64,000 nucleotides of DNA from Maricaulis maris (GTDB taxonomy: Bacteria > Pseudomonadota > Alphaproteobacteria > Caulobacterales > Maricaulaceae), in assembly GCF_003634045.1 (NCBI RefSeq), contig NZ_RBIM01000001.1, positions 372,001-436,000 of the forward strand. The letters run 5' to 3'. Shown here piece after piece: positions 4,236 to 31,171 of this stretch. The translations under genes and the position numbers were made by a program. Below the pieces are notes generated by a model. The model searched no databases, was not told the DNA's origin, and saw nothing but the letters and a program-made list of their open reading frames with translations. Every line of letters begins with the position of its first letter. Within the stretch, counting starts at the first letter, position 1.

Positions 4236-5456
4236 ATGCCCGCACATTCCCCGGAGACAGACTTGGCCGATATCCCGACGCAATCCGCGACCCGCACGAA
4301 TAATCCCAAACCTGTCCTTCGTCCCGGTGATCCGCGCTTTTCCTGCGGGCCGGTGAAAAAATATCCCGGCTGGTCATGGGACGCGATCGCCGATGCGCCG
4401 CTATCGCGCACCCACCGGGCCGGGGCCCCGGTCGCGCGGATCAAGGAAGCCATCGAGCGTACCCACGCCCTGCTCGAACTGCCCGAGGGTTATAAGGTCG
4501 CGCTCCTGCCGGGCTCGGACACCGGCGCGATGGAAGCGGCGATGTGGTCGCTGCTCGGTCAGCGCGGCACCGATGTCTTCTCCTGGGATGTGTTCGGCAA
4601 TCGCTGGACGCTCGATGCCCGCGACGAGCTGAAGCTGCAGGATTTGCGTGTTTTCCAGACGCCGGCGGGCACGCTGCCGGATATCAGCCAGTATGATGGC
4701 AAGCGCGACGCCATTTTCACCCTCAACGGCACGGCGGCCGGTGTCTGGATTCCGGATTTTGACTGGATCGACGCTGATCGCGAGGGGCTGACCCTGTGTG
4801 ACGCCACGTCGGCCGCTTTCGCCGTGGAGATCGACTGGTCGAAAATCGATGTGCTGACCTTCTCCTGGCAGAAATGCATGGGCGGCGAGGCCCAGCACGG
4901 CATGCTGGTGATGAGTCCGCGCGCCATCGAACGCCTCGACAACTACCGGCCCGACTGGCCGATCCCGGGCCTGTTGCAGCTGCACACCAAGGGCAAGGCC
5001 AATCTGGCGGTCTATGAGGGCTCGACCCTGAACACGCCGTCGCTGATGGCGGTCGAGGACTATCTGGCGGCGCTGAAATGGGCCTCGCGCATTGGTGGCC
5101 TGCCGGAACTCATCCGTCGCCGCGAGGAGAATTTCGCCGCTCTGGACGCCTGGGTGCAGGAGGCCGACTGGATCGATTATCTGTGCGCCAATCCGGCCCA
5201 TCGTTCGCCCGTCTCGGTGACGCTGAAATATACCGACCCGGCGGTGATCGCCGCCGGCGAGGATGCGCAATGGGATCTGACCAAGAAAATCTCCTCCCTG
5301 CTGGAGCGGGAAAATGCGGCGCTGGACATCAGCATGCACCGGGCATCCGTGCCGGGCATCCGCATCTGGTGCGGGCCGACAGTGGAGCGTGATGATTTGG
5401 CCGCACTCGGTCCCTGGCTCGACTGGGCCTATCGCGAAGCGCTGGACGCGGGCTGA
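4236..5456 (+). CDS. serC: Phosphoserine aminotransferase
   Basis: SerC converts 3-phosphohydroxypyruvate and glutamate to phosphoserine in the cytoplasm, the second step of serine synthesis. This is the long alphaproteobacterial/methanogen-type SerC (406 residues as called). The PLP lysine is K213 in SWQKCMGGEAQHGM, and the conserved N-terminal RFSCGPVKKYPGW motif is at 34-46. ATG 4236 lacks a clear ribosome-binding site; a TTG at 4263 preceded by GGAG with about six bases spacing is a serious alternative that would remove nine residues. No serA is adjacent, although these genes often sit together in related genomes. Confidence 0.92.
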   Translation: MPAHSPETDLADIPTQSATRTNNPKPVLRPGDPRFSCGPVKKYPGWSWDAIADAPLSRTHRAGAPVARIKEAIERTHALLELPEGYKVALLPGSDTGAMEAAMWSLLGQRGTDVFSWDVFGNRWTLDARDELKLQDLRVFQTPAGTLPDISQYDGKRDAIFTLNGTAAGVWIPDFDWIDADREGLTLCDATSAAFAVEIDWSKIDVLTFSWQKCMGGEAQHGMLVMSPRAIERLDNYRPDWPIPGLLQLHTKGKANLAVYEGSTLNTPSLMAVEDYLAALKWASRIGGLPELIRRREENFAALDAWVQEADWIDYLCANPAHRSPVSVTLKYTDPAVIAAGEDAQWDLTKKISSLLERENAALDISMHRASVPGIRIWCGPTVERDDLAALGPWLDWAYREALDAG

Positions 5457-15769: not shown

Positions 15770-15863
15770 GCATGAGTTCCAAGGGGTGCCCGCGCATGTT
15801 GCGTCCGGGCTGAGACTTCACCCTTAGGACCGGATCCGGGTCATGCCGGCGTCGGGATGGAGC
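15770..15863 (+). promoter_or_regulatory. TPP riboswitch (THI element)
   Basis: All conserved blocks of the thiamine pyrophosphate aptamer are present in order: AGGGGTGCC (15782-15790), GGCTGAGA (15808-15815), ACCCTTAGGACC (15820-15831), GGATCCGGGTCATGCCGG and CGTCGGGA (to 15857). P1 can form between GUUCCA (15776-15781) and UGGAGC (15858-15863). The 3' strand of P1 contains GGAG (15859-15862), which sits six bases before ATG 15869, so ligand binding should block ribosome access. It leads the four-gene operon ending in thiC. Confidence 0.93.
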
Positions 15864-15868
15864 GGGGA

Positions 15869-16234
15869 ATGGACGTCGAAAGCTTCAATACGTTTTGCGG
15901 ATCACTGCCTCACACCACGCATGTGGTGCAATGGGGCGGCGCCGAAGTGTGGAAGGTGGGCGGCAAGATTTTCGCCGTCGGCGGCTGGAACAAGAATAGC
16001 GACAGCTTCGCCGCCAGTTTCAAATGCTCGGCCATGACGTTCGAGATGTACAAGGACGAGCCGGGCGTGCGCCCCGCCCCCTATCTCGCCTCGCGCGGCA
16101 TGTTGTGGCTGCAATGCTATGACGACAGCACGCTCGACGACGCGGCGCTGGAAGCCTATCTCGCCGAAAGCCATCGGCTGGTGGCCTCCGGTCTGACCAA
16201 GAAACTGCAACGCGAACTGGGGTTTATCGAATGA
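15869..16234 (+). CDS. MmcQ/YjbR-family protein, first gene of the TPP-controlled operon
   Basis: A 121-residue cytoplasmic protein of the MmcQ/YjbR (DUF419) fold: an N-terminal helix, then VVQWGGAEVWKVGGKIFAVGG, a loop with PAPYLASRGMLWLQ, and a C-terminal helix LVASGLTKKLQREL. These proteins have a CyaY-like alpha/beta fold and no fixed biochemical role; some bind DNA. ATG 15869 is chosen because GGAG in the riboswitch P1 stem is at ideal spacing; ATG 15857 lies inside P1. The stop overlaps the next ATG by four bases, so translation of all downstream genes is coupled to this one. Confidence 0.85.
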   Translation: MDVESFNTFCGSLPHTTHVVQWGGAEVWKVGGKIFAVGGWNKNSDSFAASFKCSAMTFEMYKDEPGVRPAPYLASRGMLWLQCYDDSTLDDAALEAYLAESHRLVASGLTKKLQRELGFIE

Positions 16235-17076: not shown

Positions 17077-19542
<2,466 letters not shown>

Positions 19543-19599
19543 AGGGCTCAACGTGTGAACTGCGTTGAGCCACTAGAGTATCGCACTCAAGGCTGAAGC

Positions 19600-20355
19600 C
19601 TAAGCAGCTTCTAGGTTTCGGCTGGGCCGCACCCTCAGAAATACATACGGACGCGGGCGGTGGGGAGTACCATTCACCCTTAACAAAGAGGCTTCAACCA
19701 ACCTGTTTGATAACCAATAGAGAACGGACTTGGCTTGGAGGCGATTGATGTACCCTATGTTTTGCGAACCCACTGTTGCTTGAACCGCGTGATCGTCAAA
19801 GGGGTTCTCTACGTCGTGATCCAATATAACGCTCTTTCCTTTGAATCCTTCCGGAATATTGCTGATGTAGTGACGAGTTCCTGCAAGTTCCAATATCAAG
19901 TCGCAGGACGTCCATTCGGAGCACAAAGGGTCGACCATGGAAAAGCCGTCATTGGGCGAACGTAGCTCAGTAATGCTCATCAACTGAAACGGGGACAGCA
20001 CCTTACCGCTAGGGATGCAAAAGTTAGCCAGATATTTTTCGTAGTCGGAGCGCTTCGGGTCAGGAAGGCGCCGGAGGAATGCTTTGAGAACTTCTTCTCC
20101 ATCCCAGCTGCGCCCGGGAGAGAATCGGAATGCAGGGTAACCTACGAATCCTGAAGCGCTCAGCTGCGTAAGCGATCTCCCGCCGTTGCGATCTTGAAGC
20201 TCTTCTTCGCCAAAATAGCGGAATGTCGGCGACGGTCTATCAAGGTTGACCATTTCGCCTACCGCCCAACGCGTTCTATTTGGGAAGTTTAGCGGCGCTT
20301 CCCAAGCCAAAATTAGCTTTTCAGGCGTCTGAATCCGGTCCAGCAAGTAGGTCAC
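19600..20355 (-). CDS. HIRAN-domain protein paired with a HipA-like kinase
   Basis: A 251-residue protein. The C-terminal third has a clear HIRAN domain: LAGTRHYISNIPEGF..GKSVIL, then DVENPFDDHAVQATVG..NIGYINRLQAKSVLYWL, matching the pattern of a conserved DxxNPxDxxAV turn and GYIxxxxA helix that binds DNA 3' ends in eukaryotic HLTF. The N-terminal part (AWEAPLNFPNRTRWAVGEMV, FRYFGEEEL, LKAFLRRLPDPKRSDYEKYL) matches the region usually found before HIRAN in bacterial stand-alone members. GTG 20355 has AGGGG eight bases upstream; TTG 20361 is the alternative. It follows the kinase gene by a few bases. Base composition is lower in GC than its surroundings. Confidence 0.8.
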   Translation of the reverse strand: MTYLLDRIQTPEKLILAWEAPLNFPNRTRWAVGEMVNLDRPSPTFRYFGEEELQDRNGGRSLTQLSASGFVGYPAFRFSPGRSWDGEEVLKAFLRRLPDPKRSDYEKYLANFCIPSGKVLSPFQLMSITELRSPNDGFSMVDPLCSEWTSCDLILELAGTRHYISNIPEGFKGKSVILDHDVENPFDDHAVQATVGSQNIGYINRLQAKSVLYWLSNRLVEASLLRVNGTPHRPRPYVFLRVRPSRNLEAA

Positions 20356-20366
20356 AGACAATTCCC

Positions 20367-21311
20367 CTAAATCGCACGGAGCAGAGCAAGCTTGGCCTTG
20401 ATAATGGCAAGAATAAATTCCGCGCGGTAACCTGAGAACCTAGCCGGATGGGCAAACTCACTAGCCCAAGCCACGATTCCCTCAACTTCGGCCTCTTCCA
20501 ATTGAATCACACGCTGAAAGGTAGCGCCAGCCGTTTCGTAGACAGACAAATATTTCCGGCACAATTCAACGTGATGCGCTCCCGAGTGATCGCCTTCAAG
20601 CCAGCCGTAATGGTGCTTTCCACGGTTAACGAATCTGCGAATCGATTCTTCGGACAAGTGCTGCCTCAGGTCCGCGTCTCGAATTCTCCAACCCAAGCTG
20701 GACCCATTGTCGAAAGCCGGAGCGAGTTCGTAGCTCACTTCGCCCTGAGGTGAGTGATTGACTAAAAAGCCCCAGTTTTCTGAATGGCGGTCACTATTCG
20801 AAATGATTGCATCAAAGGCGATTGTTTCGGCCCACCATCTCCGCCAGTTGGGAATTCGATGGCTTCTAGTCAGGAGTAGGTTGGAGCGTAGACTTCCTCT
20901 TTGCAGGTCAATCTCTGAGTCAAAAGCTTGGAATCTATCGATCGCGTGCACAAATCTCCGAGGATTTTCTTCGTCTTGATACCCAAAGAAAAATTCTATC
21001 AAGACACCGATTTCATCGGTGCGGGAGTTTATTGCGATGAAAGCTGGCGGCACTGGGACTCCGCATAGTTTGCCCACTTCATACGCAATAGCTTCCGACC
21101 AAATCTGGGGGTTTTCGCCATCTACGTTGGGCTTTTTAAAAAGGTAGCGGTGGCCTCCAAGCAAGAACCCAAATGGAGGCGGACTAGGGCAAACTAGTAT
21201 GTCTTTCGCGCGCTTTCCAACTGGAGGGATCGGGAAGTCCTGGTCGGGCTCCCAGTCCGCAACATCCACTATTTCTGCTGCATGCTGGCGATTTCGTGGG
21301 CCAATTGGCAT
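20367..21311 (-). CDS. HipA-like protein kinase
   Basis: A 314-residue protein with the HipA/PI3K-like kinase layout. YLFKKPN (K59/K60) and SEAIAYEVGKLCGVPVPPA (E73) are the ATP-lysine and alpha-helix glutamate; DAIISNSDRHSENWGFLV (about 167-183) is the catalytic loop, with D174 and N179; LAPAFDNGSSLG (D201) is the metal-binding DFG equivalent. The N-terminal HipA domain is missing, so this is a short single-domain form. It is the first gene of a two-gene unit with the HIRAN protein. Codon and base usage are clearly AT-richer than in thiC. No HipB-type antitoxin is visible. A role in growth control or defence is inference. Confidence 0.82.
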   Translation of the reverse strand: MPIGPRNRQHAAEIVDVADWEPDQDFPIPPVGKRAKDILVCPSPPPFGFLLGGHRYLFKKPNVDGENPQIWSEAIAYEVGKLCGVPVPPAFIAINSRTDEIGVLIEFFFGYQDEENPRRFVHAIDRFQAFDSEIDLQRGSLRSNLLLTRSHRIPNWRRWWAETIAFDAIISNSDRHSENWGFLVNHSPQGEVSYELAPAFDNGSSLGWRIRDADLRQHLSEESIRRFVNRGKHHYGWLEGDHSGAHHVELCRKYLSVYETAGATFQRVIQLEEAEVEGIVAWASEFAHPARFSGYRAEFILAIIKAKLALLRAI

Positions 21312-21469
21312 AATTTTCTCAATGCAGCTTCGTTGTCATATTCATGCGTGGCGACCATAAGGCAGCCGAGTTGGTGCGAGGAGGCAAATCTGAATTGCCG
21401 AGTGGAAAACAAGGGCACACCGATTCCCTGCATTCCCCCACCTCCCCACAAACCCCATGCCGAGACCCC

Positions 21470-21551
21470 GCCGTATTGAAGTCCCGCGGTCAAGGGCGGC
21501 GGAGCCGCCGCTTCGCGGTTGTCACCCTTGACCGCGGGACTTCAATACGGC
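21470..21551. repeat. 82-base hairpin element, copy A
   Basis: A perfect inverted repeat with 27-bp arms (21470-21496 and 21525-21551) around a 28-base loop that itself contains a small hairpin CGGCGG-AG-CCGCCG. The arm reads as a conserved outer GCCGTAT, a middle TGAAGTCCCGC, and a conserved inner GGTCAAGGG. Copy B at 31026-31107 has the same outer and inner parts and loop length but a different middle. It lies in the 308-base non-coding region between the HipA-like kinase and the nuclease gene; nothing else is seen there except a weak 29-74 codon frame on the minus strand. Confidence 0.85.
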
Positions 21552-21619
21552 CCCTTGCTGGCAAGGGTTTTATGGCTCTGTCCGCGCTGTGGGCGCGACG
21601 GCTGACTAGGTGGGGGCGA

Positions 21620-22219
21620 ATGGCGACCAAGGAAGACATTCTCGAACAGGTCGTTGAGGAATACCTGATCCACCAGGGCTATTTCGTACAGCACAATGTG
21701 AAATTCCTGCCGCGGCGGGATCATCCGGATTTCGTATCCAATCAGGACAGCAATCACTCTGATATCGATGTGCTGGGCTTCCATCCGGCCAGGCGCGGGC
21801 CGGAGCAGGTCGTTGCGGTCAGTTGCAAGAGCTGGCAGCAGGGCTTCAGCCCGGCCAGCGAGATCGCGGCCATTGAGGGCGACAAAACCTTGCGCGGGCG
21901 AAAGGCGTGGAAGGCGTTCCGGGAACTGACCGTGCCGAAATGGTCGGAGGCGTTCATCGCTGCGGTTGAAGCGGCGACCGGGCGCCGCGAGTTCACCTAT
22001 GTCACCGCCATCGCCAAGCTGAGAGGTCCTGCTGAGCCGTGGGAAACCCATCCCGGCTTCCGTGCCGCGCTCGGTGGCAACCCGATCCGCATCCTCACCT
22101 TCCAGCAAATGATCCGCGACCTCGCGCCGGACATGTCGACAACGCTCGCGGCAACCGAAGTCGGGCGTTTGCTGCAAATGTTTGCCGCCTCGGGTTTCAA
22201 CCTCGATCAAACCCGCTGA
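21620..22219 (+). CDS. PD-(D/E)XK nuclease-like protein
   Basis: A 199-residue protein. The motif S-D-I-D-V-L-G-F followed about 15 residues later by VAVSCKSWQQG gives the PD-(D/E)XK layout (D about residue 47, C-K-S in place of E-x-K, so the acidic member of the second pair is replaced by cysteine or serine). The N-terminal helix DILEQVVEEYLIHQGYFVQHNVKF is typical of Mrr-like and conserved bacterial nucleases of this group. Absence of a standard glutamate makes catalysis uncertain. There is no methylase beside it. It is flanked on both sides by the hairpin-element family (copies A and C). Confidence 0.65.
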   Translation: MATKEDILEQVVEEYLIHQGYFVQHNVKFLPRRDHPDFVSNQDSNHSDIDVLGFHPARRGPEQVVAVSCKSWQQGFSPASEIAAIEGDKTLRGRKAWKAFRELTVPKWSEAFIAAVEAATGRREFTYVTAIAKLRGPAEPWETHPGFRAALGGNPIRILTFQQMIRDLAPDMSTTLAATEVGRLLQMFAASGFNLDQTR

Positions 22220-22270
22220 AGCGCCGCCTTGCCGGCAAGGGTTTCCTGCTGCCCTCCGGCCCAGGCACCG

Positions 22271-22404
22271 CCTCTCCCCGACCGGGGAGAGGATCAAGGT
22301 GAGGGGCGGCCGCGTTGCGGCCAGGGAAGAGTTTGTCCGGCGCGGCTGCCGCCGCGTGCCCCTCATCCGCCCTTCGGGCACCTTCTCCCCGGTTGGGGAG
22401 AAGG
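22271..22404. repeat. Intergenic palindromic repeat element, type 1
   Basis: Bounded by hairpins CCTCTCCCCGACCGGGGAGAGG (left) and CCTTCTCCCC-GGTT-GGGGAGAAGG (right), with inner inverted sequences ATCAAGGTGAGGGGC and GCCCCTCATCCGCCCTTCGGGC. The same family occurs in the opposite orientation at about 59425-59530. These short elements are widespread in alphaproteobacterial intergenic DNA. Confidence 0.75.
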
Positions 22405-22440
22405 CGGGCTGTGACGCTGGTCCCAACCCTTATCCCACAG

Positions 22441-22510
22441 TAGCCGCTTCGTGGTTCCACCCTTGACCCCGCTCATCCCCTGAGGCCCCTTTTGGCTGGC
22501 AAGGGGTTTA
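22441..22510 (+). repeat. Half copy (C) of the 82-base hairpin element family
   Basis: Matches the right half of copy A plus its downstream flank: AGCCGCTTCGTGGTT..CACCCTTGACC, a different following segment (CCGCTCATCCC), then GGCCCCTTTTGGCTGGCAAGG and GGTTTATGGCCC, compared with copy A's CCCCTTGCTGGCAAGGGTTTTATGG. No matching left arm is found. It is in the same orientation as copy A, on the other side of the nuclease gene. Confidence 0.6.
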
Positions 22511-22540
22511 TGGCCCGGTCTGCGCCGGGGCGCGTGAGGT

Positions 22541-22680
22541 CCTCGCCTTTGATGGGCGAGGTGGCTGGGCGCGTAGCGGCCAGACGGAGTGGGTGCGGGG
22601 CGGTCGGTGCCGGAACGCTGCGCGTTTCACCCCTTCCGGCCCTTCGGGCCACCTTCCCCATCGAGGGGAAGGACCTGTCG
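22541..22680. repeat. Intergenic palindromic repeat element, type 2 (second copy)
   Basis: Left hairpin CCTCGCCTTTGATGGGCGAGG, then the core GGGCGCGTAGCGGCCAGACGGAG shared with the element at 6118, and right hairpin ACCTTCCCCATCGAGGGGAAGG. Non-coding. The boundaries are approximate. Confidence 0.65.
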
Positions 22681-23088
22681 TGTGTTTTCCGTGCGCCACC
22701 ATCCGCCCCTCGCTCCGCTCGGCCCCCGTCGACCCGTCGCTTTGCGCCGGCGGACGAAGGGCGCGGCGCGTCAGCGCCGGGGGGCTGCCTGTGCCCCGCT
22801 TGCCACACATCTCGCCTCAAACGCGAAACAGGCGCGCCTTCACCTTGCCCTTGCCGCCGGGCCGGGCTACCCAGCGCGTCCCGGATCAATCGGCACAAGA
22901 GAGCAGATCCATGCGAACTTTCATCTAGGCAAAACAGGTCGCCGGCGCGCGTCCTGACCCTGAGACCGCTTCGACCGCAACCCGGTCGCCGCCCTCGGGA
23001 TTCCGCTGCGTCACCGCCTGACTGTCCAGATGATGATGACCATGAGGACGGACCCTGCAGCACCGCTGCCCCCGGGTCCGCTGCTGAG

Positions 23089-24870
23089 ATGTCCGACTTT
23101 CAAAACCAAGACGAAACGCCCCGCGCCCGCAATCTCTCCAATATGGAAGTGCTGGCCTATCTGACGCGTCAATGGCGCCGACGCCCGGTCCTTCTGACCG
23201 GGATGATCCTGTTCATGGTGCTGGCGACCATTGCCGAATTGCTGATCCCGCTCGCTGCCGGACGGCTGATCGATGCCCTCGCGGCCGGCCCCGACAACGG
23301 CACGCCCTGGCCGGCCTTTGCCACCTATCTCGGTGCGGCATTGCTGTATTATGCGCTGCGCCAGTCGGCCTCGCGCTGCGAAGTGCCGTTTTCCTCGGCC
23401 AACATGGCCGACCTGACCACCCATGCCTTCGCCCGGGTGCAACGCTTTTCGCTGGACTGGCACGCCAATACTTTCGCCGGCTCGGTGGTGCGCAAGATCA
23501 CGCGTGGCATGTGGGCCTATGACAATATCACCGTGAACATCTTCATGGGGATTGCGCCTTCGATCGGGGTGATGCTGGGCATTGCCGGCATGATGGCGCT
23601 GCGCTGGCCGCTGGTCGGCGGCGTGGTGTTCGCGGTGATGGCCTGTTTCGTGACCTCGTCCCTGCTGCTCAGCCGCTATTATATCCGGCCGCAGAACATT
23701 CGCTCCAACGCACTCGACAGCGAGATCGGCGGGGCGCTGGCCGATGCCATTGGCGGCGTCGCGACGGTGAAGAGCTTTGGCGCCGAGGCGCGCGAGGATG
23801 CCCGCTTCCACGATCTCACCTGGCGTTGGCGGGCCGAGACCAAGAAGACCTGGCTGCGCTTCGTCAATTCCTGGCTGGTCAATATCGTCACCGATCTGAC
23901 CATGCAGGCCGCCCTGGTGGGCCTTTTGGTCTGGCAATGGTCGCGCGGTGTGGCCTCGGCCGGTGATGTGGTGGCAGCGCTGACCGCCTACATGATCGTG
24001 TCCGGCTATATGCGCCGTTTCGGTGAACAGGTGCAGCAGGTCCAGCGCGGCATGGACGAGATCCAGGACCTGGCGATCTTTGACCTGCAGGAGAGCGATG
24101 TCGGCGACCGGGCCGATGCAACCGAGTTCAAGCGCCGTCGCGGGGCCATCCGTTTCGAGGAGGTCGGCTTCACCTATGCCGGTCAGACGCGGCCGCTCTA
24201 TACCGACTTCTCGCTGGAGATCGATCCGGGCGAGACGGTGGCGCTGGTCGGGCCGACCGGCTCGGGCAAATCGACCTTCGTCAAGCTGGTGCAGCGTCTT
24301 TATGACGTGACGGAGGGGGCGGTGCGGATTGACGGTCAGGATGTGCGCGGCGTGACCCAGGACAGCCTGCGCCGCAATGTGGCGCTGGTGCCGCAGGACC
24401 CGGCCCTGTTTCACCGCTCGATCGCGGCCAATATCGCCTATGGCGCCCCGGATGCGACGCCGGAGGATATCGTGGCAGCGGCCAAGGCGGCCCATGCCGA
24501 TGCCTTCATCCAGCGCCTGCCGATGGGTTATGACACGCTGGTCGGCGAGCGCGGGGTGAAACTGTCGGGCGGCGAGCGTCAGCGGGTCGCGATTGCGCGG
24601 GCCATCCTCACCGATGCGCCCATTCTCATCCTCGACGAGGCCACCTCCAGCCTCGACAATGAGACCGAGCGCGATGTGCAGGCGGCGATGGAAGCGGTGA
24701 TGGATGGCCGCACGACCATTCTCATCGCCCACCGCCTGTCGACCATCCGCAATGCCGACCGCATCCTGGTCTTTGAACAGGGCCGGATCGTCGAACAGGG
24801 CACGCATGACGAGCTAGCGGCCAATGATGACGGCCTCTATGCCCGGCTGGCAGCCCTGGCGGCGGGCTAG
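23089..24870 (+). CDS. ABC exporter, fused permease and ATPase (ABCB-like half-transporter)
   Basis: A 593-residue half-transporter: six transmembrane helices in the first 320 residues (from MILFMVLATIAELLIPLAAG), then an ATPase domain with Walker A GPTGSGKST (388-396), the signature LSGGERQR (492-499), and Walker B ILILDEATSSLD (about 512-523). The homodimer would export lipids, peptides or drugs from the cytoplasm; the substrate is unknown. ATG 23089 is chosen as the first Met after the repeat region; no strong ribosome-binding site is visible (GCTGCTGAG), so the start has some uncertainty. Confidence 0.9.
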   Translation: MSDFQNQDETPRARNLSNMEVLAYLTRQWRRRPVLLTGMILFMVLATIAELLIPLAAGRLIDALAAGPDNGTPWPAFATYLGAALLYYALRQSASRCEVPFSSANMADLTTHAFARVQRFSLDWHANTFAGSVVRKITRGMWAYDNITVNIFMGIAPSIGVMLGIAGMMALRWPLVGGVVFAVMACFVTSSLLLSRYYIRPQNIRSNALDSEIGGALADAIGGVATVKSFGAEAREDARFHDLTWRWRAETKKTWLRFVNSWLVNIVTDLTMQAALVGLLVWQWSRGVASAGDVVAALTAYMIVSGYMRRFGEQVQQVQRGMDEIQDLAIFDLQESDVGDRADATEFKRRRGAIRFEEVGFTYAGQTRPLYTDFSLEIDPGETVALVGPTGSGKSTFVKLVQRLYDVTEGAVRIDGQDVRGVTQDSLRRNVALVPQDPALFHRSIAANIAYGAPDATPEDIVAAAKAAHADAFIQRLPMGYDTLVGERGVKLSGGERQRVAIARAILTDAPILILDEATSSLDNETERDVQAAMEAVMDGRTTILIAHRLSTIRNADRILVFEQGRIVEQGTHDELAANDDGLYARLAALAAG

Positions 24871-24971
24871 GGTCACAATCGCGAGAACAACAGGCGGGCG
24901 CAGCGTGTCCGCCTGTTCGATGGCGCCTGATCATGCTTGACTGGCGACCACACAAATCGAGGACATCCGAC

Positions 24972-25808
24972 ATGCGTCTCGCCGTAATCCTTGGCTGCCT
25001 GCTGCTGATCATCACACCCGCCGGACTGGCGGATGACGACCATCCCCGTCCCTTTGACGAGAATTTCGCGGCCATGGACGTCGTCGATGCGGCGCTTGCC
25101 GAAGCGCTGGCCGAGGACAAGCGGCTCCTGCTCGTGCTGGGCGCCAACTGGTGCCATGACAGCCGCGGCCTGGCGCATCATTTCGAGGATGCCGAGCTCG
25201 CCGCCACGCTGGAGGCGCACTATGTCATCCGTTTCATCGATGTCGGCTGGCGCGACCAGAACCACGACATCATGCGCCGTTTCGGGGTCGCCGCGATCTA
25301 TGCCACGCCGACCGTGCTGGTGATTGATCCGGGTGACGAGACCCTGCTCAACCGGGCCGAACGCAATTTCTGGGGGTCGGCCTATTCGACGCCGATCGAG
25401 GAGGCGCGCGCCTGGTTTGTGCGCTGGGCCGATGCCCGTCCGGCGACCGGCGGGCTGGTCGAGAATTCACTGATCTACCAGGCGATGATGATCGAGATCG
25501 ATATTTTCGAGGAGGAGGAGGGCACGCGCCTGTCCGCCGCCTATCGCGATATCGGTCGCTGGCGGCAGCTGGACGAGGCGGACCGTCCCGACAATTTCCG
25601 CGCCCTCGATCGTGAGGTCGAAAACTGGCGCCGCAATCTGCCACGCGACATCGCGCAATTGCGTCAGGAGGCCCGCGCCATGGTGATCGGGGCCCTCAAT
25701 GCGCGCGCCGGCGGTGATCCTTTCACCGCTGACACTGTGGCTGCGCTGGATGCCGATGATCCCGATCTCGCCCTGCGTTTCCGCCCGCATGCCAGCGACA
25801 CCTGGTAA
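24972..25808 (+). CDS. Periplasmic thioredoxin-like protein with a C-x-x-S motif
   Basis: A 278-residue protein with signal peptide MRLAVILGCLLLIITPAGLA. Residues about 50-160 form a thioredoxin-like domain: LLLVLGANWCHDSRGLAHHF carries a single-cysteine CHDS motif in place of CxxC, and IYATPTVLVID contains the cis-proline. A helical C-terminal extension of about 110 residues follows. Single-cysteine forms are often reductases, isomerases or chaperone-like rather than dithiol oxidases. It stands between the ABC exporter and the PhzF gene, which starts 16 bases after it. Confidence 0.78.
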   Translation: MRLAVILGCLLLIITPAGLADDDHPRPFDENFAAMDVVDAALAEALAEDKRLLLVLGANWCHDSRGLAHHFEDAELAATLEAHYVIRFIDVGWRDQNHDIMRRFGVAAIYATPTVLVIDPGDETLLNRAERNFWGSAYSTPIEEARAWFVRWADARPATGGLVENSLIYQAMMIEIDIFEEEEGTRLSAAYRDIGRWRQLDEADRPDNFRALDREVENWRRNLPRDIAQLRQEARAMVIGALNARAGGDPFTADTVAALDADDPDLALRFRPHASDTW

Positions 25809-25823
25809 GGATCACGGCCGGTC

Positions 25824-26645
25824 ATGACGCGCAGCTTTCCCTATTACGAGCTCCACAGTTTCGCCGTGCCGGGCCGGCCCCACAGCGGCAATCCGGCTGG
25901 TGTTGTACTGATGGATGATTTCCTGTCCGACAGCGAGTTGTTGGGCATCGCCAATTCCAACAATCTCTCCGAAACCGCCTTCCTGGTCCCGCGCGGGACA
26001 GATTGCTGGCATCTGCGCTGGTTCACGCCGGCCATCGAGGTCGATCTGTGCGGCCATGCGACTTTTGCGGCCGGTGCCGTGGTGCTGGAACAGGGGATGG
26101 TGTCGGGCCGGACCGCCAGTTTTGACACCCGTTCGGGCCGGCTGGCCGTGAGCCGCGACAATAAGGGTGACGGCTTTGCCATGGACCTGCCGGCCATCGG
26201 CTTTGAAACGACCGGCCGCGCGACCGCGCTGGAGGCTGCGCTCGGTCTCGATACGTCACCGGAAGCGGTGTTCAACGTTACCCGCATCCACGGCGCGCGC
26301 TACCAGATGTGGGTGATGGCGGATGAGGCTGCGGTACGCTTGGCCGAGCCGGACCATGGCAAGTTACGTTCGCTGGACACCAATATCATCCTGACCGCGC
26401 CAGGCGAGCACTGCGATTTCGTGTCCCGCTTCTTCGCCCCGGCCTCCGGCGTTGACGAGGACCCGGTGACCGGGTCGGCACATTGCACGCTGGCGCCTTA
26501 TTGGGGCGAGCGGCTCGACAAGCTGCGCCTGTCGGCGCGTCAGATCGGTCCGCGTCCGGGGGCGCTGGACGTCGCGCCCAAAGGCGAGCGCGTGACCTTG
26601 TATGGCCACGCGCCGCGCTATCTTGAAGGCCGGATCACGGTCTGA
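25824..26645 (+). CDS. PhzF-family isomerase/epimerase
   Basis: A 273-residue member of the PhzF family, which has a duplicated diaminopimelate-epimerase fold. The catalytic glutamate is E50 in ANSNNLSETAF; CGHATFAAGAVVL and the mirrored FAPASGVDEDPVTGSAHC in the second half are the two family signatures. Most members outside phenazine clusters have no assigned substrate. There is no other phenazine gene here, so phenazine synthesis is not implied. It shortly follows the thioredoxin-like gene on the same strand. Confidence 0.92.
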   Translation: MTRSFPYYELHSFAVPGRPHSGNPAGVVLMDDFLSDSELLGIANSNNLSETAFLVPRGTDCWHLRWFTPAIEVDLCGHATFAAGAVVLEQGMVSGRTASFDTRSGRLAVSRDNKGDGFAMDLPAIGFETTGRATALEAALGLDTSPEAVFNVTRIHGARYQMWVMADEAAVRLAEPDHGKLRSLDTNIILTAPGEHCDFVSRFFAPASGVDEDPVTGSAHCTLAPYWGERLDKLRLSARQIGPRPGALDVAPKGERVTLYGHAPRYLEGRITV

Positions 26646-26669
26646 GCGACCACGACGGCGGCGGCTGGA

Positions 26670-27140
26670 TCAGTGACGCAGAGCGCTGCCGCGCCGGGGG
26701 TCACGTCGGTCGCGCGGATGGTCGAAACGGTCCGGCCCGAAACGGCGTCCGCGGTATTCGCGCGGATAATGGATGGCGACATCGATCCAGCGCGTCTCGC
26801 CGCGATAACCGCGCACATAATAGGCGCCATTGCGGGCGACATAGACCACGCCCGGGCTGGCCGGCTGGGCGGCAATGCCGATATAGCGACGGTCGCGCTC
26901 ATACCGGTCCGGCTGGTAGGACCAGGCCCGGGGCGGACATTCGATGACGCTGCGGTCGCGAATGTCCTCGCGGCGGTCGAACCGGCTATCGGTGCGGCGG
27001 GCATCGATCCGGTCTTCGCGCAGATCGGGGCAGGCGGCGGCATTGAGATGCCAGGTTCCGGCACTGGCCGCACCGGTCGCAGCGACCGATCCGAACAGGG
27101 CGAGAAGGGCAATGCCGATACGGGTTTTTGCGGTCTTCAT
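26670..27140 (-). CDS. Exported Arg/Tyr-rich protein of unknown function
   Basis: A 156-residue protein with a signal peptide (MKTAKTRIGIALLALFGSVAATGAASA); GGAG seven bases before ATG 27140 supports this start over one five codons upstream. The mature chain is rich in Arg, Asp and Tyr (FDRREDIRDRSV; ERDRRYIGI; HYPREYRGRRF) with a repeated Arg-Asp pattern at the C-terminus, which may be unstructured. No family recognised. Confidence 0.6.
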   Translation of the reverse strand: MKTAKTRIGIALLALFGSVAATGAASAGTWHLNAAACPDLREDRIDARRTDSRFDRREDIRDRSVIECPPRAWSYQPDRYERDRRYIGIAAQPASPGVVYVARNGAYYVRGYRGETRWIDVAIHYPREYRGRRFGPDRFDHPRDRRDPRRGSALRH

Positions 27141-27347
27141 TGGGGTCTCCTTCATGGATCCGGCGGGGGCAGCCGGGATATGATGGGAGCAGTGAGCCAG
27201 AATGCGCCTGACTGGCGCTTGAAGCGGCCGTTCAGCTTCCAGTCATCGCGATGAACATTAAATGCATGGCGCTGGATTCAGGGGGCAATCTCGGCTTTGC
27301 TGAGGTCTGATGACCGGGCGGTCGGCCCACGGGGAGGGGAAATCATC

Positions 27348-28709
27348 ATGCGCCACATCATCGGGAACCTCGCATCGGTCCGCGCGTCGGCACTTGCACC
27401 GGCATGGGTAATGGCATCGATACTGGCATTGGCACTGTCGACGCCCGCCCCGGCACAGGGCGATGCTCCCGAGCTCGCAGGCGGGCCGGATACGCAGCTT
27501 GAAGCCGACCGTCTCTCCAGCCGCGAGATCGGCCGCTGGCTGCGCCAGATCGACGTCAAACCGCCCAAGCCCGGCGGCGGCACCTCTCCGGCCTCGACCC
27601 GCTATACCGGCAATGACAGCTGCCAATGGGCCAATGATGGCGAGTGCGATGATCCCGGCATCGGCACCGGCGCCTGCCAGGTTGGCACCGACTATTCCGA
27701 TTGCTGGCGCCTGGTCGAAGGTGTCGAGGACAATACCTGCCGCTGGGCCAATGATGGCGAGTGCGACGAGCCGGGTTTCGGCACCGGCGCCTGCACCCAG
27801 GCCACCGATCTCGCCGATTGCGGCGACATCATCCATCTGCGCTTCCGCAATGACAGTTGCGAGACCGCCTTTGACGGCGTCTGCAACGAACCGGGTATCG
27901 GCGATGGCGCCTGTGCCGAGCGCACCGACCGCGCCGATTGTTTCGGCCGTGAACGCCCGCTGACCATCAATGATCATTATTTTGGCCGTGACGACCGCGT
28001 CTTCCATGACACCGCCACCTTCCCGTGGTCGGTGGTCGGCCAGGTCGATTTCGACACGGGCGGCGCCTGCACCGCGACCCTGATCGGTGATGACATATTG
28101 ATCACCGCCTCGCATTGCATCGACGATAATGGCCGTCCCAATTCACGCGGCACCTTCCACACCGCCTATGGTCGTCCCGGTGGGGCGCTGTCGGCGCGGG
28201 TGATCGATCACATGATCGATCCGGACTGGAATTCGCAGCGCTTTTCCTCCGGCGACGAGATCGACGGGACCGACTGGGCCCTCCTGCGCATTGACCGACC
28301 GCTCGGAGCCGAACTCGGCCATGTCGGCGTGCGCGCCCTGGTCGACAGCGGCAGCCGCCGCGACGCGCTGCGCGCCGAGCTCTACCAGGGCGGCTATAGC
28401 TGGGATACCGGCGCCCATCTGTCCGGCAATATCGGCTGCCACATGGTGGAAATCTTCAACGACAACACCATGGCGCATGATTGCGACACCACGCGCGGCG
28501 ACAGCGGCTCGCCCTTCATGGTGCGCGAGGGTGACGCGTATTTCGTGGTCGCGACGGACAGTAATTTCCGCTCCAACCCGAACGGCCCGATGATCTATAT
28601 CGCTGCCCGCTCGGACCGCTGGATCCCCTATCTGGAGGAGTTTGCGTCAGGCCGTCGCAGCGCAGCCGCCGCCTCGCGCCCGACGAGCGGGGTGAAACCG
28701 CCGAAATAG
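27348..28709 (+). CDS. Secreted trypsin-like serine protease with three Cys-rich repeats
   Basis: A 453-residue exported protein (hydrophobic leader ending near STPAPAQ, residue 37). Three tandem repeats of about 28 residues at 92-119, 131-158 and 171-198 each have the pattern C-x-x-A-NDGECDEPG-G-GAC-x-x-TD-x-x-DC, resembling a calcium-binding, disulfide-linked module. The C-terminal 250 residues are a chymotrypsin-fold protease with catalytic H256 (ITASHCID), D309 (TDWALLRID) and S386 (RGDSGSPFM). Probably acts outside the cell or at the surface. The substrate is unknown. It ends near the AT-rich ATPase island. Confidence 0.88.
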   Translation: MRHIIGNLASVRASALAPAWVMASILALALSTPAPAQGDAPELAGGPDTQLEADRLSSREIGRWLRQIDVKPPKPGGGTSPASTRYTGNDSCQWANDGECDDPGIGTGACQVGTDYSDCWRLVEGVEDNTCRWANDGECDEPGFGTGACTQATDLADCGDIIHLRFRNDSCETAFDGVCNEPGIGDGACAERTDRADCFGRERPLTINDHYFGRDDRVFHDTATFPWSVVGQVDFDTGGACTATLIGDDILITASHCIDDNGRPNSRGTFHTAYGRPGGALSARVIDHMIDPDWNSQRFSSGDEIDGTDWALLRIDRPLGAELGHVGVRALVDSGSRRDALRAELYQGGYSWDTGAHLSGNIGCHMVEIFNDNTMAHDCDTTRGDSGSPFMVREGDAYFVVATDSNFRSNPNGPMIYIAARSDRWIPYLEEFASGRRSAAAASRPTSGVKPPK

Positions 28710-28851
28710 GCGTGCGAATGCAGACGTCACGTCGCTTGCCCCTCGTGCATCCAAAATTGCACCTCCGCACAAAGCTCGCATAGTTTGATTTCTGCCCGCT
28801 CCTTTGATCTAGTCACATACAACGACGAACTATCGGGGAGTTTATAGCGCT

Positions 28852-30954
28852 ATGGACGCTCAAAAGTTTTCGCGAATTGCCGAGTCTCTTCGCCAGTATC
28901 GCCGGGCCGAACTCAAAGATTTTGGCGAAGATGTATCTGGCCAACCGATCGACCAATTGTACGTCGACCCGTTACCAAGCAATGCTATAGTTTCAACTGT
29001 AAAATCCGGCAACACGACCTTTATTCTAGGCCGAAAGGGCACCGGAAAAAGCACCGTCTTTGCCAAGGCGCAGTCTGACATTAGAAAACAAGATGATCTT
29101 ATTTCCTGCTATATCGACGTTAAAAGTCTGCATGATCTCACAAAACCTGCAGATATTTCATCCAGCGATGAAGTAAATTTGAACCATGGCATCTATCGTA
29201 CACACCTACTCCGAAAAGCGTTCCTTGGGAGCGTCCTGTCACAGGTTATTAAGGAGCTAAAAGCCGCCAGCCAGGATATGTCGCTATGGGATCGCTGGGC
29301 GGGCCGCCAACGGTCTATTGATGAACTGGAGGAGCGTCTGACAAGGATCGAAAAATCCGTCAAGAATGCAAAACTGGAAAATCAAGAACTGCCAATATTA
29401 CAGCGCATTCAGACACGCTGGCGGGCCCAAACCACCGACGAGCAGACTACAGAAACTTCCGCCTCAGCAAAAATTGTAGCATCGCCGACTTTCCCCCGCG
29501 CCGAAGCTCAAGCCGACACCAAAGATTTTGAGAGAACGCTGGATGACAGGGAAATATATGATGAATACTCCCGTATAGTTTTGAGCACTTTTCCTTATGA
29601 GGATATTATATCGGAGATTAAAAGCCTTTTGGATGAAAGCTCTCTAAGGAGGCTTATTATTTTCTTCGATGATTTTTCAGAGCTAAGCTTTTTAGACCAA
29701 AGGCTTTTTGTTGATATAATTTTGTCTCCACTAAATAATTCAAGCAACGAACTAATAAAACTAAAAGTGGCCGGATACCCAGGTCGTGTTTATTATGGAT
29801 CTATAGATCCAACAAAAATTGATCGGGTGAATTTAGACTTTTCGAGTCTATATGAGACCACCGACGTGCAGTCAATGGAAAGCGCCGCGATTGATTACAC
29901 AACCAGACTTATAAAAACTAGATTTTCGGCGTTCGATGCGGAAATAGAAGATTACTTTGACTCGGGAACTCCAATAAGCGAGCACATGCGCACCTTATTT
30001 CAAACAACATTCAATGTACCACGACTAATGGGGTCGCTTCTGCAATATTGCTATCTGGATAGAATTTCAAAAAATCAAAAAATAACCCCATCTTCACTTC
30101 GATTGGCGGCTCGTAAATACTACGAATCCACACTGAATACATACTTCGACATGCTGAACAAATTTGCATTAGAACCATTTGACAACAAACTCGACCGCCA
30201 CAATCAAAAAAAGCTCTTAGAGTTTGTAGTAGGAGAGATGCGTAATATAAGAAAAAAAATTGCAGATGGCACTGTCGGCGGATCGTACTTCAATAAACTG
30301 AGCGTACAACCTGTAAGCCATTTTTATGTCAGCTCTTCTTTTAGCGATATATTCAACGCTCTTGAAGCCAACTTTTTAGTTTCGAGGTATAAAGACACGC
30401 GAGATAAAGATGGACGCTCCGTTACGGTTTTTGCACTTTACTACGGATTAACGGAATTGGAACGTATTGCTTGGGGATACCCAGAGGGACGAGAGTATCG
30501 GAACTATTTCGTACAGAGGTGCTTCGACCTTACGACGTCAATTCAATCATTTTTGTCCAGCAAGCAAACTATACGTTGCAACGGATGCAAAACCAGCTTT
30601 CCCCTTGAAACGCGTGCTAGTTTAGAGCTTTACAAGTGGAAGTGCCCAGAGTGCGCCGATGGTGTTTGTTCCATTGTGAATATCGCGGATGATTTTTCTG
30701 CAGAAATTGACGAAATCAAACAAGATTTACAACTCGAACCAGTTGAGCTTGAGATTTTGAATACGCTACAGGTTGAAAATCGACCGATGGCCGCTGGGGA
30801 AATTTCGTCACTTATTGACGTGACCTATCAATTAGTGGGTCGCCGCACGGCAAAACTCCAAGATAAAGGATTTGTGAAAAAGAGTCAGAATAACAACGAT
30901 AAGAGAGTGCGAAGTGAAATTCTAGAAAAAGCGAGTGATTTATACTTTTCCTGA
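28852..30954 (+). CDS. P-loop ATPase with zinc ribbon and winged helix (accessory gene)
   Basis: A 700-residue protein whose DNA is strikingly AT-rich beside its neighbours. Walker A is GRKGTGKST (60-68); Walker B is RLIIFFDDFSEL (about 267-278) with an acidic pair. A coiled-coil-like stretch (RSIDELEERLTRIEKSVKNAKLENQEL, about 154-180, here cited in parts) separates them. Four cysteines near 576-601 (CNGC, CPEC) make a zinc ribbon, followed by a C-terminal MarR-type winged helix (MAAGEISSLIDVTYQLVGRR, about 645-664). It resembles predicted STAND/ORC-like ATPases found singly in genomes; a defence or phage-related role is inferred. No partner gene is adjacent. Confidence 0.8.
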   Translation: MDAQKFSRIAESLRQYRRAELKDFGEDVSGQPIDQLYVDPLPSNAIVSTVKSGNTTFILGRKGTGKSTVFAKAQSDIRKQDDLISCYIDVKSLHDLTKPADISSSDEVNLNHGIYRTHLLRKAFLGSVLSQVIKELKAASQDMSLWDRWAGRQRSIDELEERLTRIEKSVKNAKLENQELPILQRIQTRWRAQTTDEQTTETSASAKIVASPTFPRAEAQADTKDFERTLDDREIYDEYSRIVLSTFPYEDIISEIKSLLDESSLRRLIIFFDDFSELSFLDQRLFVDIILSPLNNSSNELIKLKVAGYPGRVYYGSIDPTKIDRVNLDFSSLYETTDVQSMESAAIDYTTRLIKTRFSAFDAEIEDYFDSGTPISEHMRTLFQTTFNVPRLMGSLLQYCYLDRISKNQKITPSSLRLAARKYYESTLNTYFDMLNKFALEPFDNKLDRHNQKKLLEFVVGEMRNIRKKIADGTVGGSYFNKLSVQPVSHFYVSSSFSDIFNALEANFLVSRYKDTRDKDGRSVTVFALYYGLTELERIAWGYPEGREYRNYFVQRCFDLTTSIQSFLSSKQTIRCNGCKTSFPLETRASLELYKWKCPECADGVCSIVNIADDFSAEIDEIKQDLQLEPVELEILNTLQVENRPMAAGEISSLIDVTYQLVGRRTAKLQDKGFVKKSQNNNDKRVRSEILEKASDLYFS

Positions 30955-31025
30955 GCTGGTGAACATTCATACAAATTATGTTTTGACGCGCCTGTAGCCC
31001 ACCTTAAACCACTTGCCGAGAGATC

Positions 31026-31107
31026 GCCGTATCCGCTTCTTCGGGTCAAGGGCGGCGCAGCCGCCGCTCCGCGGGCAGGCCCCTTGACCCGAAGAAGCGG
31101 ATACGGC
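31026..31107. repeat. 82-base hairpin element, copy B
   Basis: Perfect 27-bp arms (31026-31052 and 31081-31107) around a 28-base loop. Arm parts: outer GCCGTAT, middle CCGCTTCTTCG, inner GGTCAAGGG. The loop starts CGGCGCAGCCGCCGCT like copy A. Downstream flank GGCTGACAAG..ATTTAGGG resembles copy A's GGCTGGCAAGG..TTTATGG. It lies between the AT-rich ATPase gene and the esterase gene. The remainder of the 217-base gap holds nothing else recognised. Confidence 0.85.
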
Positions 31108-31171
31108 CCGCTGGCTGACAAGTGATTTAGGGTTCAGATCGCGCGGGCCGCGAGCACATTTCGAGGCTCGC

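Follow-up and report, generated by a model that had tools for sequence, protein, structure and literature searches.

A dispersed intergenic palindromic repeat of Maricaulis whose hairpin stem varies in pairs

How can a long hairpin change its letters and still keep its pairs? The question is raised by two 82-base hairpins, copies A and B, in a stretch of 64,000 nucleotides from Maricaulis maris (contig NZ_RBIM01000001.1, positions 372,001 to 436,000), hereafter the window. As an earlier note on this DNA had described, each has perfect 27-bp arms and a 28-nt loop (A, 21470-21551; B, 31026-31107), and the two have in common the outer GCCGTAT, the inner GGTCAAGGG, and a loop motif. The 11-base middles of the arms were said to differ completely; they differ at nine of 11 positions and stay paired. 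The hairpins rank first and second among 21 inverted-repeat pairs in the window (at least 18 bases, arms no more than 200 apart), and when folded as single-stranded DNA neither was equaled by any of 200 shuffles (z = -9.3 for A and -6.6 for B). Copies A and B both belong to a family of intergenic palindromic repeats, ~172 bp long, in the genus Maricaulis. Below, G000 is the genome of the window, other G numbers are further genomes of Maricaulis or of the comparison set, and L numbers are extracted stretches.

An exact search that left the 11-base middle open gave 35 arm matches in the own genome, so A and B are not isolated. A covariance model was built from 50 copies; in the own genome 150 of 3809 candidates were scored, with 112 matches counting both strands, as the model matches nearly every copy on both. 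Counted on one strand per place, 431,662 bases hold 55 full-length matches as well as short forms; two of the 55 adjoin a run of N and may be a single copy. From the outside inward, the element has end mini-hairpins, a conserved but asymmetric base (CTTGCCGAGA on the left and GCTGGCTGACAAG on the right), the 27-bp stem with its free middle, a conserved collar (TCAAGGG/CCCTTGA), and a tip of two triloop mini-hairpins, variants of which are paired (by eye). The 82-base unit is therefore a real hairpin but only the center of the element (model spans are in table 1). End mini-hairpins lengthen the element by ~15-18 bp per end in most copies; by eye, none is evident at the left end of copy A. End stems of at least 4 bp are present on the left in 40 and on the right in 41 of 53 copies; outside stretches have them in 19 of 106 cases and shuffled ends in 520 of 2120. 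Five hairpin-deleted derivatives were examined.

The middle of the stem varies yet nearly always pairs, as the earlier note had expected. Among 135 copies, a set that excludes the two at the run of N (L128) and includes same-site copies from several species, which are not independent, the 11-base middle has 42 versions, and 3425 of 3482 arm cells are Watson-Crick (98.4%; the count omits one exceptional position, column 20, as well as 28 gap cells, of which 27 fall in a single arm column). The 57 remaining cells comprise 13 G.U, 13 A.C, and 31 others. Equality of G.U and A.C rejects a 3:1 excess of G.U (p = 0.005) and does not clearly reject a 2:1 excess (p = 0.058). When strands are read in the frame of the loop, G.U and A.C number 7 and 5 for forward loops, 7 and 6 for reversed loops, and 0 and 1 where orientation is unclear. 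In the alignment of 50 rows, 98.2% of cells pair and 11 pairs have changed on both sides; none of 500 shuffles, which keep relatedness uncorrected, reached the observed pairing or double changes, and sliding the structure along the alignment lowers pairing to 29-49%.

Copies that occupy the same site in different species reveal how the stem changes in place. Sites were matched through the 1200-bp flanks of copies in G000, G016, G010, and others, with flank matches of less than 150 bits discarded. Of 34 pairs that were aligned, 30 were used (both L128 pairs, the pairing of the second L132 copy with the same G016 copy, and one pair of G016 with G010 were left out), giving 24 comparisons with G016 and six with G010 at 26 sites of G000. 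Both flanks matched in 17 of these and one flank in 13. The 17 two-flank comparisons contain 24 changes on both sides of a pair and 14 on one side only, and 23 of these double changes remain Watson-Crick. The one-flank comparisons had 19 both-side and 12 one-side changes, with 13 of the 19 from a single pair. Some paired changes turn C-G into G-C, a step without a wobble intermediate. At the site of copy A, near thiC, counterparts are present in seven genomes (G016, G010, G008, G014, G015, G002, and G005) and there are paired differences among species (TGAAGTCCCGC, TGAATTCCCGC, and TGAACTCTTGC). The idea that TGAAGTCCCGC, the middle of copy A, is the usual middle inverted was dropped; TGAATTCCCGC in G002, G008, and G014 and TGAACTCTTGC in G005 suggest ordinary paired substitutions. 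Movement of the repeat is old or slow: among the comparisons used, matching flanks tie 26 own-genome copies to a counterpart in G016 or G010.

The loop can also differ in direction. The loop of copy B matches that of the same-site copy in G016 at a score of 49.0 when reversed and 14.5 when forward, and the outer and base sequences of the two have the same orientation. Loop direction is linked to column 20 of the stem: the loop is forward in all 47 copies with G.G and reversed in all 55 with C.C, without exception, and in the 33 copies with G-C it is forward in 15, reversed in 16, and unorientable in two. The inner module therefore occurs in either direction with respect to the base.

In 16 same-site pairs, identity is 89.1% within the element versus 71.7% and 70.0% in the adjacent 75 nt on either side (58.7% for unrelated flanks), and gaps per 100 positions number 0.9 versus 19.0 and 23.7. 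Such conservation suggests selection, and homogenization between copies could contribute. Presence also varies. At the site of copy B, G000 and G016 have the element, and the five other genomes fetched for this site (G015, G006, G017, G010, and G012) lack it. G016 has no counterpart of the L133 copy at 4528. At the site of the L134 copy (12456), G010 is empty and G017 retains only a remnant without the hairpin. When genes are called simply by codon usage, 54 of 55 copies fall outside open reading frames (ORFs), the exception being at a run of N. Convergent gene junctions are enriched (20 of 53 versus 48 of 321, p = 0.0004) and divergent ones are not significantly depleted (7 of 53 versus 63 of 321, p = 0.34). 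At tandem junctions, the canonical orientation agrees with the gene strand in 19 of 26 copies (19 versus 7, p = 0.03).

We consider it likely that the arms are homogenized by template switching, that selection favors the hairpin, and that the copies spread in ancestors and are now mostly inherited in place. The palindrome would fold during replication and the polymerase would switch template between the arms, so that a point change in one arm is copied into the other and the loop is at times inverted. Selection for an intact hairpin would remove broken copies; palindromes can be lost by slippage. Copies would have spread, by whatever mechanism of dispersal, in the ancestors of the species. Template switching would account for paired changes without an excess of G.U, for paired transversions, and for the inverted loop, and selection for the hairpin would also be needed because the element is conserved. 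In the passages available from two studies, template switching is described as homogenizing arms and inverting spacers (PMC8604942) and as maintaining hairpins (PMC8794818). The earlier note had held that the two arms are copied or selected together, and of the mechanisms that it allowed, templated copying is the best supported, whereas the 13 G.U and 13 A.C give no indication of selection on an RNA strand.

Several observations weigh against this reading. The both-side changes are uneven, with eight of the 24 from L165 and five from L142, and about half of the stem differs in L165 and, with one flank matched, in L166. Only in nine of 15 two-flank G000-G016 pairs is the same-site copy the best match among 34 G016 copies, and therefore some same-site differences may be replacements by another copy; the nine closest pairs alone have seven both-side and four one-side changes (hand count). 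The counterpart of copy A in G015 has two unpaired positions. Persistence of the column-20 mismatch (G.G or C.C) in 102 of 135 copies, together with the lack, in all 135, of the C-G state expected of free correction, means that correction is rare at column 20 or that the site is selected. Switching of loop orientation is rare, G.G never having become C.C in the 30 comparisons, and in-place inversion of the loop is therefore seen at one site only, that of copy B. Strong conservation and pairing would also fit selection without template switching.

If selection alone maintained the pairs, it could act on RNA: the repeat would be transcribed from neighboring genes and its hairpin would act in the mRNA, for example in stability or as an RNase III site. 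NEMIS repeats provide an example of an RNase III site. A role in RNA is described for the yersinial ERIC, in the part of the source consulted (PMC2267715). Placement outside ORFs, enrichment at convergent junctions, agreement with the gene strand in tandem, and conservation above that of the flanks are all in keeping with such a role, as is one basal pair for which 31 of 50 rows have A-U and 19 have G-U. But the arms show no more G.U than A.C on the canonical strand and no clear excess in the frame of the loop, paired transversions occur, and nearly every copy is matched by the model on both strands. Nor does an Rfam family reach its gathering score at the copies: among five loci with copies, searched at E up to 1, only mir-196 was matched, at 22-25 bits versus a cut-off of 55 bits, and in the window only TPP (thiamine pyrophosphate) was found. 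We regard an RNA element as unlikely. Covariation is strong here and G.U is no commoner than A.C; covariation alone is no proof of RNA structure. It is also doubtful, albeit conceivable, that the repeat is selected as a DNA structure and is neither parasite nor RNA. A cruciform or hairpin would have its base and tip read by a putative structure-specific protein, and the letters of the stem would be free because self-templating replication keeps the arms identical. The inner module is found in its two orientations about equally (47 and 55 copies) with the linked mismatch, and, by eye, other families of the order combine the tip module with different bases.

Mobility provides two further explanations. 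That the repeat is nonautonomous and like a miniature inverted-repeat transposable element, with a transposase acting on the end hairpins and the hairpin needed for movement, would explain dispersed copies, presence and absence at the same site, the end mini-hairpins in 40 and 41 of 53 copies versus 19 of 106 outside stretches, two neighboring copies of opposite orientation in G016 where G000 has one, and single homologous elements at two or more places in three genomes of another family. However, a target-site duplication is not demonstrable, as empty sites were found with flanks too diverged to read one, and elements are better conserved than flanks at shared sites. The Y1 transposase PF01797, the only transposase family searched for, is in five of 19 genomes (copy-rich G010 and G003 among them) and was not found in copy-rich G000, G016, G006, G015, and G017. 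On balance we find this rather unlikely. A recombination site resembling integron attC, folded as a single strand and exchanging accessory or defense genes, fits a stem that is variable but paired with conserved ends, as well as the position of copy A at a defense hotspot and of copy B at an accessory ORF. It is very improbable given that no integron integrase (TIGR02249) is above the cut-off in any of 19 genomes (weaker matches are in all 19 and also in all 14 control genomes), that hotspot cargo is also present in G004, where no copy was found, and that only nine of 55 copies are near low-GC DNA. The attC candidate was rejected. The repeat provides tens of natural replicates of one hairpin in one genome, with same-site copies in sister species, and the origin of compensated stem changes, by template switching or by selection, is therefore directly measurable in bacteria.

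The repeat is largely a feature of one genus. It was matched in 17 of 19 genomes of the genus, with 1 to 110 matches per matching genome, numbers that count both strands and are not copy numbers; the model found no copy in G004 at E 1e-4. The core pattern is in 38 stretches of a named collection, 37 labeled Maricaulis and one uncultured Alphaproteobacteria. In an order-wide search of 200 genomes, with stricter filters and 16 candidates scored per genome, 30 matched, 11 in the genus and 19 others, none of the latter exceeding 65 bits. Single homologous elements (L234, L235, and L236) come from three genomes of another family within the order and occupy at least two different places. At 84-85% pairwise identity, they have base motifs and a collar that are similar but a different stem; L235 and L236 have collinear matches further out and may be one site, and the flanks of L234 match neither. 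In L237-L243, from other genera, mainly the collar and tip are in common, mostly with a different base and an added hairpin, a second architecture by eye. Copies are clustered in G016: on contig C1, the start of which carries dnaA, 19 of 33 copies among the matches listed are at 0.67-1.35 Mb of 3.37 Mb (hand count), one fifth of the chromosome. Contig C7 of G000 is likewise dense in copies. The tip module alone (GTCAAGGG N18-34 CCCTTGAC) was not supported as a class-wide feature, matching six of 385 genomes including the own versus four for a reversed control; the own genome has seven sites and the other five one each, in a sample with only five genomes of the order. An origin in phages was also rejected. 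The 16-base pattern is in 16 viral stretches, of which by eye 11 are without the second arm; the five that show it (L174, L176, L177, L178, and L180) are contigs of the viral collection with a two-armed copy and are possibly host DNA.

Among dispersed intergenic palindromic repeats, which are ~100-200 bp with many intergenic copies and a stable stem-loop, the Maricaulis repeat is a new family with unusual dynamics, having 55 matches with 54 outside ORFs. No Maricaulis repeat is named in the open-access titles and abstract openings among the matches listed, which does not prove absence. REP and REPIN are likewise dispersed extragenic palindromes, and the Maricaulis repeat is far longer. They are linked to RAYT, and a RAYT/Y1-linked repeat was rejected on the distribution of PF01797. 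YPAL, or RU-2, of Yersinia (~168 bp) is similar in length, internal inverted repeats, intergenic location, and tens of copies, but is of a different genus and has target duplications of 3-26 bp; the comparison is by description and not by sequence, and the passages available on YPAL are without stem covariation, loop inversion, and a free middle, all three of which the Maricaulis repeat has (PMC2229807, PMC2267715). Based on excerpts of the same sources, ERIC of enterobacteria (127 bp) is dispersed and intergenic with one long stem-loop (PMC2267715) but has TA termini and terminal inverted repeats (PMC2229807), and the Correia or NEMIS repeats of Neisseria (106-158 bp) have long stems (PMC2267715) but 24 bp terminal inverted repeats and TA ends (PMC2229807); in the Maricaulis repeat the long arms are internal. 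CIR, the methyltransferase-associated repeats of Caulobacter, are also structured intergenic repeats of alphaproteobacteria, described in the portion consulted as ~110 bp with two arms, a linker, and a conserved GANTC (PMC2229807). CIR was rejected because GANTC is in only three of 55 copies. Arm homogenization and spacer inversion are signatures of template-switch evolution of hairpins, reported, in the parts seen, for yeast genes and RNA genes (PMC8604942, PMC8794818), and here both are found in a bacterial dispersed repeat: homogenization at shared sites (24 versus 14 changes in 17 comparisons) and spacer inversion at one site, that of copy B relative to G016.

Table 1. Positions in the window of repeat copies A and B and of the features beside them
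Feature	Position	Strand	Remarks
Repeat element, copy A	21440..21597	+	Covariance-model match 21440-21578 plus right-end mini-hairpin to ~21597
Central perfect hairpin, copy A	21470..21551	.	27-bp arms, 28-nt loop
Repeat element, copy B	30986..31153	+	Covariance-model match 30996-31135 plus end segments, end limits approximate
Central perfect hairpin, copy B	31026..31107	.	27-bp arms, 28-nt loop; loop inverted relative to G016 same-site copy
Degenerate right half of a further copy, arm subfamily GCCTCAGGGG...	22440..22535	+	By eye, limits approximate; resembles full G015 copy
thiC, core gene adjoining copy A slot	17596..19542	+	
Variable low-GC slot between thiC and copy A	19546..21424	-	
HipA-like protein in copy A slot	20367-21311	-	PADLOC PDC-M03A
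Partner of HipA-like protein	19600-20361	-	PADLOC PDC-M03B
199-aa ORF of no recognized family, just downstream of copy A	21620..22219	+	
Low-GC 700-aa accessory ORF beside copy B	28852..30954	+	C-terminal MarR-like winged helix

Both copies adjoin accessory DNA, A the slot downstream of thiC and B the 700-aa ORF, as the earlier note had stated, but two of its protein labels were not borne out: the 19600-20361 protein, called HIRAN, matches no Pfam family, and in the 700-aa ORF, called an ATPase, no ATPase family was found at E 0.001. The 700-aa ORF is absent at the site in G016, though G016 has the element. Among 13 loci fetched on the thiC side, only that of G016 has the 199-aa ORF next to copy A (93% DNA identity). 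In eight genomes copy A forms the fixed border of the thiC slot; the slot is low in GC (43-53%) and its content differs, the only stretch in common being one of 239 nt in G010 and G016. Downstream of thiC in 14 genomes, a low-GC protein was tested in 13 and PADLOC gave hits, to known or candidate defense proteins and some of them weak, in 11. Hits in the copy A slot are the PDC-M03 pair in G000, a TIR-like effector in G016 (weak), PDC-S45 in G010, CapP-like plus beta in G014, a TmtA-like ATPase in G005 (weak), the HEC-01 pair in G002, and AbiU in G008; in other genomes, downstream of thiC, they are TIR in G004, DzbA/DzbB in G001, a PD-T7-3-like protein in G003 (weak), and a retron reverse transcriptase of type VI in G017. 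PADLOC gave no match for the proteins tested from G015 and G012, and G007 is without a low-GC ORF of at least 140 aa. Because G004 has defense-like cargo and no copy found by the model, the thiC hotspot does not need the repeat. Association with accessory DNA is clear at A and B and weak across the family, as judged with an ORF caller and a GC proxy that are both crude and with controls drawn from the same regions around copies: nine of 55 copies have a 600-bp stretch of less than 53% GC within 1.6 kb, more than the 3% of 822 random positions, but few copies overall.

Other features were observed near copies. The retron-type VI reverse transcriptase gene of G017 is at 3054-4692 of L114; next to this gene, ~0.56 kb separates the two halves of a split A-type element. 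A putative abortive-infection protein (L159, 5074-5817) and an McrB-like HNH protein (L161, 859-1860) are ~0.8 and 2.1 kb, respectively, from own-genome copies. Within the window, a TPP riboswitch (RF00059, 66.3 bits) is upstream of thiC at 15772-15874, and a second dispersed repeat of ~140 bp, at 22537-22678, has matches at many places in G000 and related genomes.

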